Shown: positions 6,626-61,000 of the stretch, one piece after another
How the letters are laid out: the number at the start of each line of letters is the position of its first letter
How positions within the stretch are numbered: the first letter of the stretch is position 1
Assembly: GCA_030710605.1 (NCBI GenBank)
Contig: CP092886.1
Span: 160,378,000-160,441,999, forward strand
Length of the DNA stretch: 64,000 bases
Origin: Cordylochernes scorpioides
Taxonomy: Eukaryota > Arthropoda > Arachnida > Pseudoscorpiones > Chernetidae
Direction: 5' to 3'
Notes under the pieces: generated by a model
Databases searched by the model: none
Seen by the model: the letters and a program-made list of their open reading frames with translations, nothing else
What the model was told of the DNA's origin: nothing
Program-made: the position numbers and the translations under genes

Positions 6626-6870
6626 AACCTTGAACAACACTGGCAGGACGTTTGTTTACAACATTTCATCGCCTGGAACAATACTGGCAGGACTTTTTTT
6701 CACAGCATTCTTTTACCTAGAGCAACACTGGCAGGACGTTTGGCTACAGCATTTCATCAGCTGTAGCAATACTGGCAGGACTTTTGGTTACAGCATTCTT
6801 TTACCTGGAAAAACACTTTCAGGACGTTTGGTTACAACATTTCTCCACCTGAAACAATACTGAAGGACTA
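6626..6870 (+). repeat. 44-bp minisatellite array (left, direct)
   Basis: About five and a half degenerate copies of a 44-bp unit with the core ACTGGCAGGACGTTTGGTTA. Open frames seen across it are by-products of the periodicity. It directly precedes the LINE at about 6.9 kb. The same unit occurs inverted at 17046-17217, so the two arrays bracket the nest. It may be a LINE 5' promoter-like monomer array or a satellite. Confidence 0.75.
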
Positions 6871-7411: not shown

Positions 7412-7423
7412 TAAACTTCCAGA

Positions 7424-10383
7424 ATGATGGGGCGAAAACTATATATTGACAAAATCAAAATTATTCAACAAAATACCAGAAAAAGCAAAAATTGCATAAA
7501 TGAGCTTTGTGCATCTGATGAAATTAGAAACGCAGATATAGTAATGATACAAGAACCTTATATAATCAAAGAGGAGGTAATATTTACAGGACCTTGTACA
7601 AAATATCAATTGATGAACAGTCCCAATATAAATACGGCAATAATTGTAAGAAATAGCAGATTAAAAATTCACTTAAGTACAGAATTCACTAACTCATTCG
7701 CTACAACTATAACCATACAAACAAAAAGTAAAATATATCTTTCCAACATTTATATACATCCGAATTCAATGAAAAGTGAGCACGAGGAATTTATGAAGAA
7801 GTTAATTAATACAAATTTACATATACCGGTGATAATTTGCGGCGATTTCAATGCCAGAGCTCCGTTATGGTATGATATCAGGAAAAATTATAATGAAATA
7901 AACCTAATTATCCATAATAATAAAACTTTCACGTGTCGTGATGCAAGTGTGATTGATCTCACACTAACAAATAAACAGGCAATTGCGGCGATCAGAAATT
8001 GGAAGACACACCAGATATCGCAAATTTCAGATCATGTAGCTATATCTTTTGAAATATATACAAACGAACAATTTAGATCAGAAAAATATTATTCCACTTG
8101 GAAATTTAATGAGAAAAATGCGAACTGGTTAAGTTTTAGTCAGAGAATTAACAGAACTGAAGGAGAAAAAATTGAAAACTTACTAGACATAGTGGATACA
8201 CCAGAAATGATTGATCAAACGGTAAAAGAACTTACGAACATACTGATTGAAGCAGCACATAATTCACTTAAAGTAAATAATAATATGACAACAAAAAATA
8301 ATATTAGTAATAAGTGGTGGAATACGAATTTACAGCTTCTAAAGGATCACTGTCATTATCTTAGAAACTGTTACTATAGAAACAAAAATTGCCCTAATCA
8401 TATTAAACAATACTATAAAAGCATACGAAATAAGTATTTACGGGAAATAGAAAAAGCTAGGAAAGCATCCTGGAGAATTTTTCTGGAGGAAAACAAATCG
8501 AACAACCCTTATGGAAACTTATATAAGGTGTATAAAAACATCAAAAGTGGATCTAATCGGAAGAGAAATATGCAAATTTTGGAGGGTAATACTGATATGG
8601 AATGTCTGCAGAAGGGTGAGGAATTATTGAATAACTTATTTCCAGATGATAAATGTGAAGAAGATACAAACATACATAAAAGTATAAGAAATTATAATTT
8701 AAAACTACTCAATAAAGAAAAACCGATGGTTACGATTACTGAAGTTAACGACTTAATTGACAAATTAAATCCAAAGAAATCTCCCGGAATAGACAACATC
8801 TCTAACAACATGATAAGGCATACTAAACAATTTATAGCTCCTATATTGGTGAAACTCTTTCAAAAATATTTAGACCTACAATACTATCCTGTTGAATGGA
8901 AAAGAGCACAGAGGCAATAATTATTCCGAAACCTGGAAAAACAGATTTTAATAACTATAAAAATTATAGACCTTTATGTCTTAATTCCAACATTTCTAAA
9001 ATATTTGAAAAAATAATTAATAATAGAATAATAAAATATTATGAAGATTTTAATTCACTAAGTGATCGACAACATGGCTTTAGAAGATAGAAATCTACTA
9101 TTACTGCACTAACTGAAATAATAAAAATTGCGTTAGAACATAAAACAAGAGAATATGCAGCAATAATTGCAGTGGATATTAGTGCAGCGTTTGATAATGC
9201 ATGGTGGCCGGCCTTGATGAAAAGACTAGATGAAGATGGTGTGCAGGCTTCAATGATAAAACTTCTACAATCATACTTTGATAATAGAAGAATAAGATTT
9301 AGATACTCCTCAATTGAAATTAATAAGAAACTAAGTAAAGGATGCCCACAGGGAGGACCACTGTCTCCCACATTATGGAATATTCTTATTAATGAGATAC
9401 TGAATAATAATCTGGATGATAATTGTGAAACAATAGGATATGCAGATGATATTACGTTAATATGTTGGAATAAAACTCCTGAACAACTAAGAAAGACATT
9501 AGATAATGTATTAAGAAAAATCAATAAGTGGTGTGAAAGTCGTAAATTAAAATTGTCAGATGAAAAAACAAAAATATTATATTTATATAAATGCAATAGC
9601 GATATAATAGTCTCAGGTAGCAAGTTAATTAAACCGGTTGAATAACTTAAGATCCTAGGAGTGACTATTAAAAATCACCGAGTCAGAAGCAAACTGGACT
9701 TTACGCCTCACGTTAATGAAATGATCATAAAAGTAACTAGAGCTAGTGGATACCTATTTGGCCTGACAAAGAAAGCATGGGGTCTAGACTTTAGACGAAG
9801 ACTGATATTGTATAAGACATTATATCGAAGTACAATTACTTATGGTTATCCAATATGGTATCCATTCATAAACAAAAAGTCTAAGGACAAACTAAATTCT
9901 CTTCAATATAATATATTAAAACATTGTATACAGGCCTACAGTACAACATCATCGGATTGTACACACATACTTGCACAAGTCCCCAAACTTACTGAATATA
10001 TTGAATCTAACATGTTGAAAACCGAAATAAATTACAATCGATTTGACTCTTCAAGTAGGAATATAATTTCTAATTATATAAGGAAAAAATTGCAGAACTA
10101 CTATGAGAAGACTAATATCATTTTCAAGTCCTTCTTCACTGATTCCCAAATACCCAAATATGTCAAGCCAAATTTTTACAATGTCCAATTTTTTACTGGA
10201 CACGGTAACTTTAGATCATATTTGTACAATGTCAGAAAGACGGATTCGCCTAAATGCTCATGTGGTGCAGAAGAAGAAAATCCTGTACATATTCTAACGG
10301 ACTGTCGACTCGTAGAGGACTTGAGAGTCAAAAATCAAATAAATATAAATTGTCTAAATCAAATAGTTAATAATAGATATATA
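7424..10383 (+). pseudogene. LINE ORF2: endonuclease and reverse transcriptase (R1/LOA-like), broken
   Basis: The intact first part (7424-8920) carries an apurinic-type endonuclease: IIQQNTRKSK, MIQEPYI, CGDFNARAPLW, ISDHVAISFEI. The start of the RT domain (KKSPGIDNISNNMI) follows. A frameshift near 8900 moves into the frame used to about 10389, which has in-frame stops at 9088-9090 (after HGFRR) and 9643-9645. RT motifs: VDISAAFDNAWW, SKGCPQGGPLSPTLWN, GYADDITLI (catalytic YADD). The C-terminus has the zinc-binding CSCGAEEENPVHILTDC. In a live element the protein nicks target DNA and primes reverse transcription there. No RNase H is seen, fitting the R1-like group. Solo LTR B has inserted at the 3' end. 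Confidence 0.9.
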
Positions 10384-16295: not shown

Positions 16296-17045
16296 CTAGA
16301 TTCAATATGCTTTCATGTAATTGTTCAGAAACTCTTTTCGATCCTAATGTAAAGTTATCTAAAGGGAATAAGAGTGAAAACCAAAGCATGGGAAATATTC
16401 TCTACGCAGAAGCGATAAGATGTTTGATGTTTCTAGCTGTCTGCACACGTCCAGACATATCATTCGCCGTTAATAAACTAAGTCAGTTCACATCTAATCC
16501 AAATCAAAGTCACTGGAATGGTGTTAAGAGAGTTTTCGAGTATTTAAAAGAAAATTGGGACTTAAGACTCAAGAATTTTTATAAAAAAAACAAACAGATG
16601 ATATCAATTTGATTGGAAACTCGATGCTGATTTCGTTGGAGACTTTGACTCTCGAAAGAGCACTTCAGGCTACGTTTTTCAACTCGCACAAGGACCAATC
16701 ACTTGGAGTAGTCAAAAGCAGTCGGTGGTCGCCCTTTCTACTAATGAATCAGAATACATCGCGGCAAACATGGCTTCCAGGGAAGCTGCATGGCTAAAAA
16801 TATTGATCAGTGAACTTATTACACCAGAAGACTGTCAACCTATTCCTATCATGATAGATAATCAGAGTACAATAAAATTGATTCAAAATCTAGAATTCAT
16901 AAAAGGACATTTCATTTTGTAAGAGAACTGCAGCGAAATGGAACTATTTAAATTTTCAACTTGCTCAACTGATGATCAACTAGTTGGCATCTTCACCAAG
17001 GCTCTGCCAACTCTTTACGCTTTTAAAGACTTAAGTACTGCCATT
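16296..17045 (+). pseudogene. Ty1/copia remnant: RNase H and C-terminus
   Basis: Last part of the copia polyprotein. RT-thumb/connection motif YAEAIRCLMFLAVCTRPDIS and SQFTSNPNQSHW (about 16405-16515). RNase H with STNESEYIAANMASREAAWL (about 16737-16797) and the end motif GIFTKALP near 17000. Frameshifts near 16610 and 16725. No copia LTR is recognisable after it; the inverted 44-bp array follows at once. Confidence 0.85.
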
Positions 17046-17217
17046 ATTTTTCCAGGTGATGAAATGTTGTAGCCAAACTTCCTGCAAGTGCTGCTCCAGG
17101 TCAAAGGATACTGTAACCAAATGTCCTGCCAGTATTGTTCCAAATGGAGAAATGCTGTAACCAAACGTCCTGCCATTGTTGCTCCTGGTGGAAGAATGCT
17201 GTAACCAAAAGTCCTAT
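17046..17217 (-). repeat. 44-bp minisatellite array (right, inverted)
   Basis: Four degenerate copies of the same unit as at 6626-6870, in reverse orientation (core TAACCAAACGTCCTGCCA). It abuts the end of the copia remnant. Confidence 0.75.
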
Positions 17218-18599: not shown

Positions 18600-20529
18600 A
18601 TGAGTGATGATATAGAATTAATGTTAGAAAACTATGATAATATAATTTACAACCTCTCATTAGAATATGATTGTTGGAAAATGTTGTTTAGATTCCATAG
18701 AGGGAAAGAACATTTTATTCAAAATGAAGGTGAAAAACGTCTAATAAATTCGATTAATGAAAAAATATCTAAATCAAAATATCTCACAATTTCTGAAATT
18801 CTTGTGTTCATATTACACAAAGTACTAACAAAATCGAGTTATAAACTACCTTTATTATTAAATTTAGTTTCCCAATTTTATGACCTTAAAATTTGCAAAG
18901 AAATAAAGAAAATGAATTTCCCAATGTTAAGAACATATATTGGACAATTTGTTGCTGATATTCCTCTTCCAAATATTCTAAACATGTTATCAGTTGTGGG
19001 TAATATGCCTTCACGTTCTAAAAAAGTTGAGGAGTTTTGCAGGAAAATAAGATTTGATTACAAATCAGTATTTGGTTTAAAAGGTAATCTTGAAAACATA
19101 GTAGATGCACACAGAGAGGCTGGCCTTTTAAAAGAAAACGTATTGGAGACATCCCAAGCATTCTCATTAAATATTCCTACAACCCTCTCACATGAGCAAG
19201 GAAATGCAGTGACCCGTCCACCAAACTGTGAAGGAGCCATTTCCTCTTCCTCCTCCTCATCTTCAGCAAGCAAGCAAGCAAGAAAGAAGCGCACAAAAAA
19301 AACTGCAAGAATGGGGGTAACAACTCAACCAGACAATGAATCTACTACTTCTTACTCTCAATCTTCAATCAAGAAATCAACAAGAGAGCGTACAAAAAGA
19401 ACAGCAAGAATGGGGGTAACGACTCAACCCAACATTGAATCTACTATTTCTTTTTCCTCTCAATCTTCAATCAAAAGATCAACAAGAGAGCCTACAAAAA
19501 GAACAGCAAGAATGGGGGTAACGACTCAACTCAACAATGAATCTACTACTTCTTCTTCCTCTCAATCTTCAATCAAGAAATCAACAAGAGAGGTTACAAA
19601 GAGAACAGCAAGAATGGGGGTAACGACTCAACCAAACATTGAATCTACTATTTCTTTTTCCTCTCAATCTTCAATCAAAAGATCAACAAGAGAGCCTACA
19701 AAAAGAACAGCAAGAATGGGGGTAACGACTCAAGCCAACAATGAATCTACTACTTCTTCCTCTCAATCTTCAATCAAGAGATCAACAAGAGAGCCTACAA
19801 AAAGAACAGCAAGAATGGGGGTAACGACTCGACCAGACATTGAATCTACTATTTCTTTTTCCTCTCAATCTTCAATCAAGAGATCAACAAGAGAGCCTAC
19901 AAAAAGAACGGCAAGAATGGGGGTAACAACTCGACCAGACAGTGAATCTACTATTTCTTCTTCCTCTCAATCTTCAATCAAGAGATCAACAAGAGAGCCT
20001 ACAAAAAGAACAGCAAGAATGGGGGGTAACGACTCGACCAGACAGTGAATCTACTATTTCTTCTTCCTCTCAATCTTCAAGCCAGAAATCAACAAGGGAG
20101 GGTACAAAAAGAACAGCAAGAATGGGAGTAACTCCTTTTAGAGCTCCTCTTAAAACCACTTCAAAACAGCAAGCAAAAAGGGGCCGTACAAAAAAGACCG
20201 CAAGAATGGGATCAACTCCTTTCAAAGCTCCCCGTAAAACCACTACAGTTAAAAGAACCAAAAGCAATCCAAAGGTTTCTAATACAAAGAAATCTTTAAA
20301 TAACAAAATACAGAGAGCTCATGCAAAAGTAAAGACACGATGGTCCCAAAAGGAAGAGGAGATCCTCGTAATGGGAGTAGAAAAATATGGAGTTGGGCAT
20401 TGGAAGGTGATTGCAGATAAAGGACCACTACCCCAGCGCTCAGGAAAGGACTGCTTCGCTAAGTGGAGAAATATAATCAAATTTGATCGCCTATTTGACA
20501 TCCAAAATAGACTGATTAATAGTTATTAG
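18600..20529 (+). CDS. Telobox Myb/SANT protein with tandem histone-H3-tail-like repeats (one frameshift)
   Basis: Intronless. Residues 1-190 are hydrophobic/helical with no recognised domain; a TRF-homology-like fold is possible given the layout but unproven. A Ser-rich stretch follows (about 215-223), then units of about 34 residues (102 bp) built on T-K-R-T-A-R-M-G, from 19290 to 20244. The last two units are divergent and end in TPFRAPLKTT and TPFKAPRKTT. The C-terminus (20326-20484) is a Myb/SANT domain: RWSQKEEEILVMGVEKYG, GHWKVIAD, and KDCFAKWRN, which fits the telobox helix 3 of telomere-repeat-binding factors. Inferred role: nuclear DNA binding, possibly telomeric. The frame opened at 18600 stops at 20046-20048 because one unit has six Gs (20021-20026) where the others have five; the other frame then runs to TAG 20527-20529. 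Either a homopolymer error or a recent break. A MITE begins right after the stop. Confidence 0.75.
19290..20244 (+). repeat. Coding 102-bp tandem repeat of the telobox gene
   Basis: About eight 34-residue units plus two shorter degenerate ones. Units alternate between two types, NNESTTS and NIESTISF, suggesting that pairs of units were duplicated together. The best conserved core is T-K-R-T-A-R-M-G. One unit is a residue shorter (33), and one carries the extra G that breaks the frame. Confidence 0.9.
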
Positions 20530-32859: not shown

Positions 32860-33200
32860 TGATGGAGCTTGGATCCTTACAGCAATAGTTTGGAAATCCG
32901 TGTTGCTCTCTAACCTTTTGTTTTAGATGTTGACTATCTTTTGGCAGAGCTTAATTTGGACTGTATGCTTTCACCTCGACCTACGGATTGACTACCGAGA
33001 GATTGTACCTTTCCTAATGCGATGTAACAACAAGAGAATGGCCACACAGCCTCACGGCGTTTAGCTGACACACTCTTTATTCAATCATCCACTCATTTTA
33101 TATACATACATATTTACATAGTCAAAAGAAAGAAAGAAGAATTTGCATGACTATGAATCAATACAGCCTAGCTAGCGATTTGCATAGCTAGGCGCAAACA
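32860..33200 (-). repeat. 3' LTR of the young BEL/Pao element
   Basis: On the - strand it begins TGTTTGCGCCTAGC at 33200. Nearly identical to the LTR at 35428-35768. The Gag-Pro ORF stop codon lies within its first bases. Confidence 0.93.
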
Positions 33201-35353
33201 TACTCCCCCCCACCGCTGAACTTCAGTTCAGATCTTGAGGCGCAATGGGAAGAGGGGCCAGCTAGGCGATTGGTCTCCCGAAAACTCCTCCGGCTGTCCA
33301 AGTTAGATCTGCGCAAGACACCTTCACCAGACCTTTCTCCCAGTGGAATTATTGGAGATCTAGAGGTAGGAATGGAGCTGTTTTGATGAGCTTTCCTTAA
33401 TAGCAGTTTCACACTGTATCTTCCTTGGCCGCCTCTGGAATAGGTTTTCTGGTAGTAAGTTTCATAAACTTCTTCTCTTGGATTCTGGTCCTGTAATGAC
33501 GGCACTGACTCCGTATGCTTGAAATCTCCCACCAGACCATCCAATTCTGATGTTGTTTGAACCGCAAGGCTGCAAGGTCCACCTTTATAGCTCGACGAGA
33601 GAGAGCCTTCCACCTTGCCCATCAGAATCCAACCGAGCCTTGATTTCACCGCTATAGGCTGGTTCCTTCCCAGAATTTTTTTCTCTCCTTGCATCAGATA
33701 TGCATACATCTCTGCACCTAGAATGATGTCGATTGGTGCCGAAATGTGAAACAGAGGGTCTGCCAACTCAAGCCCTCTCTGCATGATCCAGGTCGGTTCT
33801 GCCAATTTGAAGTTTGGAATTTCGGTGGTTAAGACCTCCATCACCAGAGCATTCGTTTCATATTTTTCGGATCTATAAATTGACCTGAATGTCAAGTCAA
33901 CAGATGTAGTTGACACCTGGACTGGATTATTTCCAATACCCCTAAGTGAGCGTCCCGATGTTTGTCCTTTGAGCCCAAGTCTCTCACAAATTTCTTTTGT
34001 GATCAAACTAACTTGTGACCCACTATCTAAAAGTGCTCGGCAGATCTGCTGTGTACCGTTTTCACCTTCCACAACTATCTGAGCAGTCGCAAGGAGCACT
34101 TGATTGATGGTCTCACTTCCCTGTTCAATACTGGTATTGTTGATTTCACTTACAGGTGTAAAGATCTGTGGCTTCGCACCCTTCTGAGTATTAGTCACCT
34201 CTGTGTCAAGCCTATGGAGCAAGGTATGGTGCCTTTTGTTGCACTTCTTGCAAGGTCCTTGGTAACAATTTTTTCCCGTATGACCTCTCTTTAGACAATT
34301 GTAACACATCTTGTGTTGTTTGACACATTCCCATTTTTGCTCATAAGGCATTGTACTAAATGTAGTACAGTTGTAGATTCTGTGACCTGCTTTGCATGCT
34401 ATGCATATTTGAGCATTGGTATTTATCGCAAGGTGTACATTTGCATAGTTCCTTTGGATTTCATTTTCTTTTCTTTGATATTCCCCTGATCCTTGTGGCA
34501 GACTTCTAGCTTGTCTCTCAAGAAACAGAACGAAGTCCTCATAGCAAGGAAATGATCTCTCATCCTGGGTCAACTCCCACTGCCGTTTCATATCCTCATC
34601 GATTCTGTTCCTCAAGAACTGCACCAAGATTATGTCCACCAACTCGTTTCTTTGCAATCCGAGGGATCCTAGGTTGCGCACAGACTCGTTACATGTGTCT
34701 AAGAGTTCCCTTAGAGCCTTTGCTGATGGACTCTTCATTTGCTTAATCTTGAAGATTTTGTTCAGTTGTGCATAAGCCAACTCTCTTTGGTTGTCGTATC
34801 TGGACACTAGAGTATCCCACGCTTGCCTGTAGCTCTCTGATGATATCGGGAACCCACGTATCAGTCTGGCCGCTTCTCCCTTTACTGCGGAGCCCAAATA
34901 TTGTAGCTTTTGTAGATCATTTAGCCCTGGATTTTGATCTATGGTCATTCCGAAGACCTCCTTGAAATTGAACCAAGAGTTCGCATCTCCATAGAAGTGA
35001 GGCAACTCGAACTTGGGCAATATTACTGTTTCGAGGCCCTTTGTTTGTTTGGTATCAGCCGTATTTCGTATTGCTTCCAATGCACGCCTAAGCTTTAATT
35101 CCAGTTTTTCCATTTTATCTTGAATTGTTTCATAACCTTCGAGTTCCTTGTCTTCATCTACTTCCTCCTGTTCGAATAACTCGTCAAATAAGATCCCAGT
35201 CTTCGTTTTTGTTTCCGATACACCTTCATATATCAGCTTTAATTTTTGGAGATCTCCTCCCGATATGTCTTCATCCACGGATGCCAGGTATCTATCCATT
35301 CGTCTTATCTGTGAACGGATCTTGACTTTTAGGCCTTTGATTGCCTTCGACAT
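33188..35353 (-). CDS. BEL/Pao Gag-protease polyprotein, pol-deleted
   Basis: 721 codons, uninterrupted. Residues 1-100 are a basic/acidic coiled segment. LPKFELPHFYGDANSWFNF (about 113-131) opens the conserved BEL Gag core (DUF1759-type). Zinc knuckles CIACKAGHRIYNC and CYNCLKRGHTGKNC lie around 315-375, with a further CKKCNKRHH. A retropepsin motif ALLDSGSQVSLI follows at about 440, then LIMGK-type linker sequence. The reading frame then jumps from an RT-start-like RYSVKLLLRK straight to a C-terminal tail FSGGGEYVCA normally found at the end of integrase, so the deletion removed the catalytic pol domains yet left the frame open. Gag packages the element's RNA; the protease would mature it. 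Confidence 0.9.
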   Translation of the reverse strand: MSKAIKGLKVKIRSQIRRMDRYLASVDEDISGGDLQKLKLIYEGVSETKTKTGILFDELFEQEEVDEDKELEGYETIQDKMEKLELKLRRALEAIRNTADTKQTKGLETVILPKFELPHFYGDANSWFNFKEVFGMTIDQNPGLNDLQKLQYLGSAVKGEAARLIRGFPISSESYRQAWDTLVSRYDNQRELAYAQLNKIFKIKQMKSPSAKALRELLDTCNESVRNLGSLGLQRNELVDIILVQFLRNRIDEDMKRQWELTQDERSFPCYEDFVLFLERQARSLPQGSGEYQRKENEIQRNYANVHLAINTNAQICIACKAGHRIYNCTTFSTMPYEQKWECVKQHKMCYNCLKRGHTGKNCYQGPCKKCNKRHHTLLHRLDTEVTNTQKGAKPQIFTPVSEINNTSIEQGSETINQVLLATAQIVVEGENGTQQICRALLDSGSQVSLITKEICERLGLKGQTSGRSLRGIGNNPVQVSTTSVDLTFRSIYRSEKYETNALVMEVLTTEIPNFKLAEPTWIMQRGLELADPLFHISAPIDIILGAEMYAYLMQGEKKILGRNQPIAVKSRLGWILMGKVEGSLSSSYKGGPCSLAVQTTSELDGLVGDFKHTESVPSLQDQNPREEVYETYYQKTYSRGGQGRYSVKLLLRKAHQNSSIPTSRSPIIPLGERSGEGVLRRSNLDSRRSFRETNRLAGPSSHCASRSELKFSGGGEYVCA

Positions 35354-35427
35354 ATTTCAGATTTGAAGGTTTGTTACTCGGCAGAATCACGCTCTTCTCC
35401 TTAAGATCCGGTTCGATATGGACCATA

Positions 35428-58000: not shown

Positions 58001-61000
58001 AACATTTTAGTTATTGTTTATACCATCTTCAGATAAAGGTACTGAATATTTTGGTTGAAAGAAGGTAACAAGGTGTTACCGAAATATGATATTATTAACC
58101 TATTTAGATGTGGTATTGTTACTTTATGATTCTAATTAATAATTCAAATTGTACCATATCAGCTATTGAATAAGAGATTCCACCGTATATTAAATAATTC
58201 ACATGCATTAGTCTAACAAGAATGTCTACGATAACTGTGCAGAGTATTAGGCTCATAGATTGTTGAGCTCTGGAAACCAAAAGGAATAATACTCTGCTAG
58301 TGATCTCTTTTGACTTGTATATAATATAATATATTATAATAGGAAATAAACTAATGCTCTTAGTTAATCTTGCCTCGTCTTGGATAACAACACATGGTGG
58401 CAGCGGTAAACTGAATTCATAAAGAAGGTCGTTGTTCGAAGAAAATTTGAAATTCGACATCAAGCAAGCTTAGAAGCGGTAAACTGAATTCATAAAGAAG
58501 GTCGTTGTTCGAAGAAAATTTGAAATTCGACATCAAGCAAGCTTAGAAGCGGTAAACTGAATTCATAAAGAAGGTCGTTGTTCGAAGAAAATTTGAAATT
58601 CGACATCAAGCAAGCTTAGAAGCGGTAAACTGAATTCATAAAGAAAGTCGTTGTTTGAAGAAAATTTGAAACGACATCACACAAGCAAACTTTTTGGTAA
58701 GTTATATTATATTATAAGTAAATCTTTATAATGTCCCAAAATTATAATTGTGTAGCCCCAGAACCTTTTAATTTTTCAAATCCAGGTGATTGGCCAAAAT
58801 GGATTAGGAGATTTGAACGTTTTAGGCAGGCAAGCGGGTTAATTAATAACCCAGAAAATGAGCAAGTTAATATGCTCGTTTACTGCATGGGTGATAATGC
58901 AGATGACATTTTGTTGTCATGTAAAATAGCAAGTGACCAACTAGAAAATTATGGTAAAGTTATTGAATGCTTTGAAAGTCACTTTATTCCAAGACGTAAT
59001 ATAATTTATGAAAGGGCAAGATTTAATCAAAGATGTCAGCAGGAAGGGGAAAAGGTGAATGAATTTATCACAGCACTCCATAGCCTAGCTGAGCACTGCA
59101 ATTTTGGGATGTTACATGATGAGTTGATTAGGGATAGGATAGTTGTTGGAGTAAGGGATAGAGCATTATCTGAAAGAATGCAACTTGATACAGACTTGAC
59201 CTTAGTAAAAGCCACACAAATGGCAAAGCAATTAGAAAGTGTCAAAGAACAGCAGTCTAGCCTTTACCAACAAGATTCTGTAGATCAAATAAAGAAAATG
59301 CCTAATCACAAAAAAGAAACAAAAAGGCACGAACCAAAAATAAGACAATTCAAGTCAAACCAGTTGGGAGGGTCATCACATGGATGCACCAGGTGTGGCA
59401 ATTCAAATAATCATGATTGGAAAAATTGTCCAGCTATGAACTCGTATTGTAGTAAATGCAAGAAAAAGGGCCATTATGCCAAAGTATGTAGATCAGAAGC
59501 CATAAATGAAATAAAATCAGAGATAGCTTTTTTGGGATCTGTAGAAGATAATTCCAAGAAATGGATAGTACCAATTAAGGTAAATAATAGACAAATTAAT
59601 TTTAAAATTGACACCGGAGCTGATGTCAACGTGCTCCCCCTACAAAATTATTATCAAGTTTCCAAAGAATAAAACTGGAAAAATCTGATAAAATATTACA
59701 AGGTCCAAATGGAATACCCTTGGAAACAGTTGGAATGATCCACGTAAAACTTCAAAATAAAGGCCAGCACTTAAACTCGAAAATATACATTGTTGATAAA
59801 CTAAAGCAGCCACTTCTCTCTGGGGAGACAAGTGAAAAATTAAACATTGTGAGAATGATTCAGCAATTATCATCAGGAGGCCGTGGCGGACAGCGTGGTA
59901 GACTCGGAAGTGGAGATAACAGAGGCTGCTACAACTGCGGGGAAGAAGGCCACTGCAAGTTTGAATGTACCAAACCTGCCTGTGGTGGTGGACGTGGCCG
60001 TGAACAGAGCCGTGATGGAGGCAGTAACAACACCTGCTACAACTGCGGAGAAGTTGGCCACCGTAAATATGAGTGTACCAACAACACGGCTGAAGATGGA
60101 GGACAGGAGGAGAACCAGCGCAAGTCCAAGAAGGCTTGCTACACCTGTGGGGAGTTTGGCCATAAGAAGGACGACTGCCCCAAATCTGGAACTCAAGAGT
60201 CCGGAGATGAGGAGGAGTCCTCTGACAATGAGGAGGAAGAGACTCCCCAGAAGAGGAAGCAAGCTGAGGACAGTGAGGAGGAGGAAGTAGAAGCTGAAGA
60301 ACCTCCCAAGAAGAAATCTAAGAAGCCCAAGTCCAAGAAGAAAGAAGAAGATTGCTATCTGACTCTTCAAGCATATAGGACGATGCCCCTGGAAAGCGCC
60401 AGGAGCAGAGAAATTAGGAGACCCCCACTTCGACATCAACCTGGCTCTCAAGGAGATGCAAGGATGACCAGGAGCAAGAGACCGAGGAGGATTGCCCTAC
60501 ACCAACGGCCTCATCTACAAGAGATGGAAGGATGCAGAGGGACAACCAAGACCAGGATCCAGAGAAGAGCCTCCCTTCAATGCCAGCCGTGCATACAAGA
60601 TGGAAGGGCAGTCAAGATACCTCGAAGGTCCCTGTAAAGTTAAGGGAGGAGATGTGCAGAGTATTAGGCTCATAGATTGTTGAGCTCTGGAAACAAAAAG
60701 GAATAATACTCTGCTAGTGATCTCTTTTGACTTGTATATAATATAATATATTATAATAGGAAATAAACTAATGCTTAGTTAATCTTGCCTCGTCTTGGAT
60801 AACAACACAATAACAATCCTTCTTCAATATTTGCAGTGAAAAAAAAAAGATATCAAAAGCACTTTCTAGAATAAATGTTGATCGTTGCAAAGAATTTTAA
60901 ATATATTTTGTATGCGCTGAGAGAGACTGCTTGCAAATATTTACAAGGAAGAGAAATTATCTTAAGAGGCAAATAAGGAATGAGATTGAATCTCAGGATG

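Follow-up and report, generated by a model that had tools for sequence, protein, structure and literature searches.

The window analyzed here is a 64,000-nucleotide stretch of the pseudoscorpion Cordylochernes scorpioides (C24:160378000-160441999), whose genome comprises 2.62 Gb over 24 contigs. Positions 18600-20529 contain a TRF-like gene that can be read without introns, with a helical N-terminal part, a linker of repeats and a C-terminal Myb domain. The first frame runs from the ATG at 18600 to the stop codon at 20046-20048. The reading then continues in another frame, offset by one base, up to the stop codon at 20527-20529. Read through the frame shift, the protein has 642 residues. The features are listed below.

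18600..20048, + strand: first open frame, with the ATG, the N-terminal domain, units 1-8 and the TGA past the shift (frame reading)
18600..19163, + strand: N-terminal domain of ~188 aa, predicted to be helical (paralogue alignments; TRFH-like solely by position and size)
19293..20211, + strand: ten TK[KR]TARMG cores in a Ser/Thr-rich linker (codon-by-codon alignment of the units)
20021..20026, + strand: run of six G in unit 8 (comparison with units 1-7)
20049..20529, + strand: shifted downstream frame, with units 9-10, a basic stretch, the Myb domain and the stop codon TAG (frame reading)
20185..20238, + strand: unit 10, RTKKTARMGSTPFKAPRK, the stretch closest to H3 2-18 (alignment with the H3 tail)
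20332..20475, + strand: single C-terminal Myb domain (PF00249, E 8.7e-12; gap-free with zebrafish Terfa)

The frame shift lies inside unit 8. Here, AGAAT is followed by six G at 20021-20026, while units 1-7 have five; this break went unmentioned in the first-pass annotation. The Myb domain falls in the shifted frame, which is open until 20529. The six-G run is either a true frame shift or a homopolymer error of the assembly. An exon/intron reading of the units, considered by eye with GGTAACG as the donor, was rejected because units 1-7 differ from one another by multiples of three bases and the frame stays open all along.

Other repeats are present in the window. A 44/88-base minisatellite is seen at 6627-6862 and 17033-17215, in opposite orientation as judged by eye from the consensus units. 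A 73-base unit is repeated in tandem at 58402-58686 (3.9 copies, 97% matches). Retroelement remains are found at 7415-8917, 33191-35356 (minus strand) and 59624-60634, corresponding to an endonuclease (PF14529), DUF1759 plus an aspartyl protease, and CCHC zinc knuckles. The Pfam scan behind them covered ten frames, at least six of which had no match.

The repeat cores start at 19293, 19392, 19494, 19596 and 19698 (units 1-5) and at 19797, 19899, 20001, 20104 and 20188 (units 6-10). Tandem Repeats Finder describes 19293-20132 as 8.3 copies of a 102-base period with 91% match. The first-pass annotation had read T-K-[KR]-T-A-R-M-G in every unit, and the codon alignment bears this out in 10 of 10 units, with M invariant. 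Units 1-9 continue the core as TARMGV. Unit 9 is TARMGVTPFRAPLK, and unit 10 is TARMGSTPFKAPRK.

The ten units were compared codon by codon. Synonymous divergence is equal inside and outside the core (pS 0.230 and 0.228), while pN is 0.019 in the core, all at the K/R position, and 0.265 outside. Thus, pN/pS is 0.08 in the core versus 1.16 in the remainder of the unit, although the units are related copies and every unit-based statistic is optimistic. Amino acids vary at only one of the eight core columns, versus 18 of 20 columns in the gap-free flank. Since the core was picked post hoc, the placement test considered any window: 713 of 200,000 random placements of the variable columns leave any 8-column window equally constant. 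The low pN at equal pS indicates that selection appears to target the peptide, not the DNA, and the repeat core appears to be kept by selection at the protein level. Constraint on the M9 position is supported likewise, among units of one gene, by M in all ten units and by the pN/pS of the core.

The N-terminal domain (residues 1-188) is common to the window gene and three paralogues, L002, L003 and L004, whose N-terminal domains are 33-38% identical to the window copy. In each of the four genes, one open frame can be followed through to a single terminal Myb domain. L002 and L003 are located about 55 kb apart on contig C3 with 97-98% DNA identity and, judging from their sequences, are recent duplicates of a TRF-like paralogue. 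L004 is on contig C8. Between L002 and L003, dN/dS is 1.01 in the linker versus 0.22 in the N-terminal domain, based on four silent changes each. For the N-terminal domain, the ratio is 0.55 between the window gene and L002 versus 0.24 between L002 and L004. For the Myb domain, it is 0.10 between the window gene and L002, with a dS of 2.8 that is near saturation.

Neither TAR nor TARM is seen in any of the three paralogues examined, which indicates that the array is not a general feature of the family. The sequence KRFAKM in L002 was considered as a related motif and dropped, as the core is at chance level against the paralogue linkers (its score is reached by 839 of 1000 shuffles for L002, 125 of 1000 for L003 and 335 of 1000 for L004). 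Units 9 and 10 also score at chance level against these linkers. Unit 3 beats the shuffles against L002 (reached by 0 of 1000) and L003 (3 of 1000). Most of its alignment falls on the Ser/Thr-rich flank, and neither TAR nor M stands opposite the core; the linkers may thus be related even though they do not have the core in common. No protein relatives, orthologues included, were found among 5.8 billion predicted proteins, a set that may be poor in animal proteins, so that missing relatives are no evidence of absence.

The likeness to TRF1 and TRF2 consists of an N-terminal helical domain of ~190 aa, a disordered linker and a single C-terminal Myb domain with a long loop. The window gene differs from them in its single open frame, four paralogues, noncanonical telobox and linker repeat array, and its N-terminal domain is TRFH-like by position and size only. 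The Myb domain matches Pfam PF00249 at E 8.7e-12. When the profile of the four paralogues was searched against PDB, Terfa was matched without gaps at E 5e-9, TRF2 at best at 3.7e-7 and TRF1 at best at 3.5e-6. The TRF2 and TRF1 rows span equal lengths of profile and chain. SNAPC4 (3.2e-14, the best match) outscores every TRF, and c-Myb is matched at 1.4e-9; both need a two-residue gap in the loop. The canonical telobox is VDLKDKWRN. The corresponding segment here reads KDCFAKWRN, in which the motif is partly kept. The telobox claimed in the first-pass annotation therefore stands as far as the TRF-like loop length and gap-free alignment go, but its motif is noncanonical and SNAPC4 scores higher than the TRFs. 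Domain order and loop length are TRF-like, whereas membership in the family is unproved.

The TRFH dimerisation domain (Pfam PF08558) has no match in the four paralogues, and a search of the genome also gave none, but 14 controls were likewise without a match. With hhalign, the N-terminal domain scores 17.7 against TRF1/TRF2 (probability 0.7%), versus 14.2 when reversed and a null of 12.9 +/- 2.3 with a maximum of 22.5 among 200. Its best PDB profile match is an unrelated design (E 0.063). In Pfam, two of the four paralogues weakly match DUF4083 and INTS7_N, with best E values of 0.012 and 0.018. A single-sequence AlphaFold model of this domain is helical with a pLDDT of 46.6, too poor for comparison. 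The Myb domain modelled alone reaches only 56.8 despite its sure fold, and thus the weak N-terminal model is uninformative. The protein might bind telomeres. Tandem TTAGG was not seen in five contig ends of 4 kb. Binding to the nucleosome acidic patch, by analogy with the structure of TRF1 on the nucleosome, was considered and dropped, as the term is absent from the available text of that paper.

The array resembles the N-terminal tail of histone H3 with methionine at the position of K9. In all ten units, TARM places a methionine where the methylated lysine would be within a histone-like context. The resemblance is most extended in unit 10, RTKKTARM-G-STPFKAPRK, compared with RTKQTARK-STGGKAPRK of H3. 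From the sequences of units 9 and 10, the best fit of unit 10 to H3 requires a one-residue insertion after M. A 54-aa block around unit 10 was aligned to H3 1-40 by Smith-Waterman, with a score of 62 over 37 columns. This score is reached by 3 of 20,000 shuffles of the block, 3 of 5,000 linker shuffles, 4 of 5,000 H3-tail shuffles and 0 of 5,000 whole-protein shuffles. It is also reached by 1.7e-4 of random blocks of matching composition (about 2 in 10,000), so that the block exceeds about 99.98% of them. For the 30 residues of unit 10 by themselves, the score is 53, a value attained by 0.31% of such random blocks, placing unit 10 above about 99.7%. The extension of the match to KAPRK with one extra residue, as noted in the first-pass annotation, is present in this unit.

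On a larger scale, 7.8 chance matches to TK.TAR and 0.18 to TK.TARM are expected per 10^7 residues of average composition. Since the array is a duplication of one unit, the ten copies count once in this estimate. In the PDB search, an H3 chain first appears at E 0.52. The likeness to H3 can be considered as moderate, being notable locally and insufficient alone at the proteome scale.

A recent derivation of the array from an H3 gene finds no support. Recent capture of an H3 gene fragment was rejected because only 2-4 of the 13 residues shared by unit 10 and H3 have identical codons in each of eight H3 copies. An H3 copy with M at position 9 was also sought as a source: 30 loci out of 71 H3 matches were read, and none of them carries it; their commonest tail is canonical. 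Divergent H3 copies of this genome (L024-L031) have long open frames and altered tails such as ARVKRTASKD..., ARMKQMTRQPSS... and ARKKQTVRKC..., and they are possible lineage-specific H3 variants.

A peptide such as TKRTARMGVTTQP is a candidate methyltransferase ligand. The G9a motif is given as [N/T/GS]-[G/C/S]-R-K-[T/G/Q/S/V/M/A]-[F/V/I/L/A] in the available part of PMC4023394. TAR(M)GV in units 1-9 (9 of 10 units) fits it at -3, -1, +1 and +2, and position -2 is alanine, the same as in H3. As G is the +1 residue in these units, no insertion is needed there. By composition-frequency arithmetic, the sets at +1 and +2 would be fitted by chance with a probability of about 0.13, and the fit is therefore consistent rather than strong. 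Because units 1-9 derive from one ancestral unit, it counts as one observation. According to the text available from PMC8541646, G9a prefers a hydrophilic and then a hydrophobic residue past the lysine; G at +1 is not clearly hydrophilic, a poorer match to this wording. At +1, S, K or R are preferred by SUV39H1 and mainly S by SUV39H2; at +2, SUV39H1 favors A, G, S or T (PMC8303541). The G at +1 of units 1-9 misfits both, and the V at +2 misfits SUV39H1. Of the SUV39/G9a-type target proposed in the first-pass annotation, the G9a part is thus retained, with a fit at four of five flanking positions, while the misfit to SUV39H1 and SUV39H2 narrows the target class to G9a-type.

That a lysine-to-methionine change at H3K9 traps H3K9 methyltransferases, as stated in the first-pass annotation, agrees with PMC5030085. 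In the parts of that paper available, H3K9M binds the Clr4 SET domain more strongly and in a SAM-dependent manner, and a crystal of H3K9M with G9a and SAM has H3 residues 3-12 visible with Met in the lysine pocket. The conserved core therefore spans the stretch held by G9a. Enzymes of both types are encoded in the genome. L047 is a G9a/GLP-type exon (EHMT2, E 3.7e-49), and L046 is a SUV39-type protein with a chromodomain, Pre-SET and SET (SUV39H2, E 7.3e-93). Pre-SET genes with long single open frames are L044, L045 and L046 (476, 476 and 598 aa). Two of them, L044 and L045, are separated by about 200 kb on contig C1 and have identical scores; L044 is assigned by Pfam only.

To our knowledge, the only natural K-to-M mimic of a histone described so far is EZHIP. 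As described in the accessible sections of PMC6513997 and PMC12713659, EZHIP (CXORF67) is an X-linked protein with tandem repeats and acts as a competitive PRC2 inhibitor through an R-M motif in a K27-like context. Inhibition is lost in R405E, M406E, M406K and M406R and kept in M406I (PMC6513997). Like the protein studied here, it is not a histone but places an R-M core in histone-like surroundings, contains tandem repeats and keeps a conserved motif while evolving fast. It differs in its target EZH2, its K27 context, the position of R-M outside the repeated part and its restriction to placental mammals, and a DNA-binding domain is unmentioned for it in these sections.

H3K9 mimics that carry a lysine are known. 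The G9a automethylation site, WIZ, CDYL, LIG1 and ATF7IP share a short A/T-R-K-like motif read by G9a/GLP, as far as covered by the available portions of PMC4023394, PMC8541646, PMC6172828, PMC10611923 and PMC9768651. These are methylated substrates, whereas the array has methionine for lysine and ten copies. The H3K9M mutant histone, which traps G9a and Clr4 (PMC5030085, in part), is identical to TKxTARM at six of seven positions. It differs in being an engineered tail rather than a natural multi-copy linker, and its +1 and +2 residues are unlike those of the array. No wording for an H3K9M-like or K9M mimic was found in the open-licence literature, and the available text of PMC9768651 names no such mimic.

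The fit to the G9a motif, the trapping by K9M and the EHMT-type exon in the genome favor reading the array as a K9M-like pseudosubstrate, offered in many copies by a DNA-tethered protein to a G9a-type methyltransferase, although this choice is tentative. Docking to another partner, such as a shelterin-like or other nuclear protein, with a coincidental likeness to H3, is nearly as likely. The protein-level constraint on the core would suit any docking motif, TK.TAR alone is expected several times per proteome, and the paralogue linkers evolve freely (dN/dS 1.01 between L002 and L003, on four silent changes). TRF linkers carry short partner-binding motifs. The iDDR of TRF2 is such a motif (PMC11260466, in its available part). 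However, this explanation comes without a candidate partner, and it has to set aside a unit-10 match that spans H3 2-18 and flanks that suit the G9a motif. Somewhat less likely, but close, is that the repeats are basic patches that strengthen the Myb domain through non-specific contacts with DNA, RNA or nucleosomes. R makes up 12% and K 10% of the linker, which adjoins the DNA-binding domain, but a purely electrostatic patch should allow K/R swaps at every basic position. Within the core, such swaps occur at position 5 alone: none of the ten units departs from K4 or R8, and A, M and G, which carry no charge, never vary.

Imitation of H3 could also serve recruitment or modification: a methyltransferase could be tethered so as to act on neighboring nucleosomes, K4 of each unit could be modified, or a reader of the H3 tail could be bound. 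The K at the position of H3K4 is invariant in all ten units. Many H3K4 readers require a free N-terminus. This is missing in the linker repeats. Shelterin of S. pombe brings Clr4/Suv39 to telomeres, according to the available text of PMC9768651. On the other side, no binding to H3K9M is described for the chromodomains of Clr4, Swi6, Chp1 and Chp2 in that of PMC5030085, and an active site with methionine in its lysine channel is blocked for as long as the methionine stays there. Altogether, recruitment or modification seems improbable. The same low standing can be given to a recent neutral expansion of a minisatellite in a decaying gene. The six-G run of unit 8 shifts the frame, the units are 91% alike, which indicates that the expansion is recent, and the N-terminal domain evolves faster here (0.55 between the window gene and L002, versus 0.24 between L002 and L004). 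Against decay stand the pN/pS of 0.08 in the core, the constraint on the Myb domain in the comparison of the window gene with L002 (a ratio of 0.10, at a dS of 2.8 that is close to saturation) and a frame that is open to either side of one single-base homopolymer change.

The G9a-type pseudosubstrate has its own difficulties. Position 5 is K or R, not Q, unit 10 needs an insertion past H3 residue 9, and the motif is missing from the three paralogues. As to a full-length product, the frame shift in the assembly leaves the first frame without units 9-10 and without the Myb domain.

Under the G9a-type pseudosubstrate reading, the starting point would be a TRF-like chromatin protein with a disordered linker between a helical N-terminal domain and a DNA-binding C-terminal Myb domain. 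In one paralogue, this linker could have been converted into about ten docking peptides in a row. Each TK[KR]TARMGV would occupy the substrate groove of a G9a/EHMT-type enzyme like H3 residues 3-11: the R8 site would receive its arginine, and the lysine channel its methionine. The complex would be tight, SAM-dependent and non-productive, like that of H3K9M. Ten copies on a DNA-bound protein might then hold the enzyme, blocked while held, at the target sites of the Myb domain.

In its widest form, it can be speculated that, independently of EZHIP and with no recent copying from H3, a TRF-type protein evolved an array of ten H3K9M decoys that would trap a G9a-type enzyme at the bound DNA and block H3K9 methylation locally, possibly at chromosome ends. 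Taken as a whole, this proposal is rather unlikely. If true, the array would be a second natural K-to-M mimic, aimed at H3K9 rather than H3K27. It would mean that mimicry of the K-to-M type arises more than once in evolution and, when carried in multiple copies on a DNA-binding protein, can be directed to particular loci.
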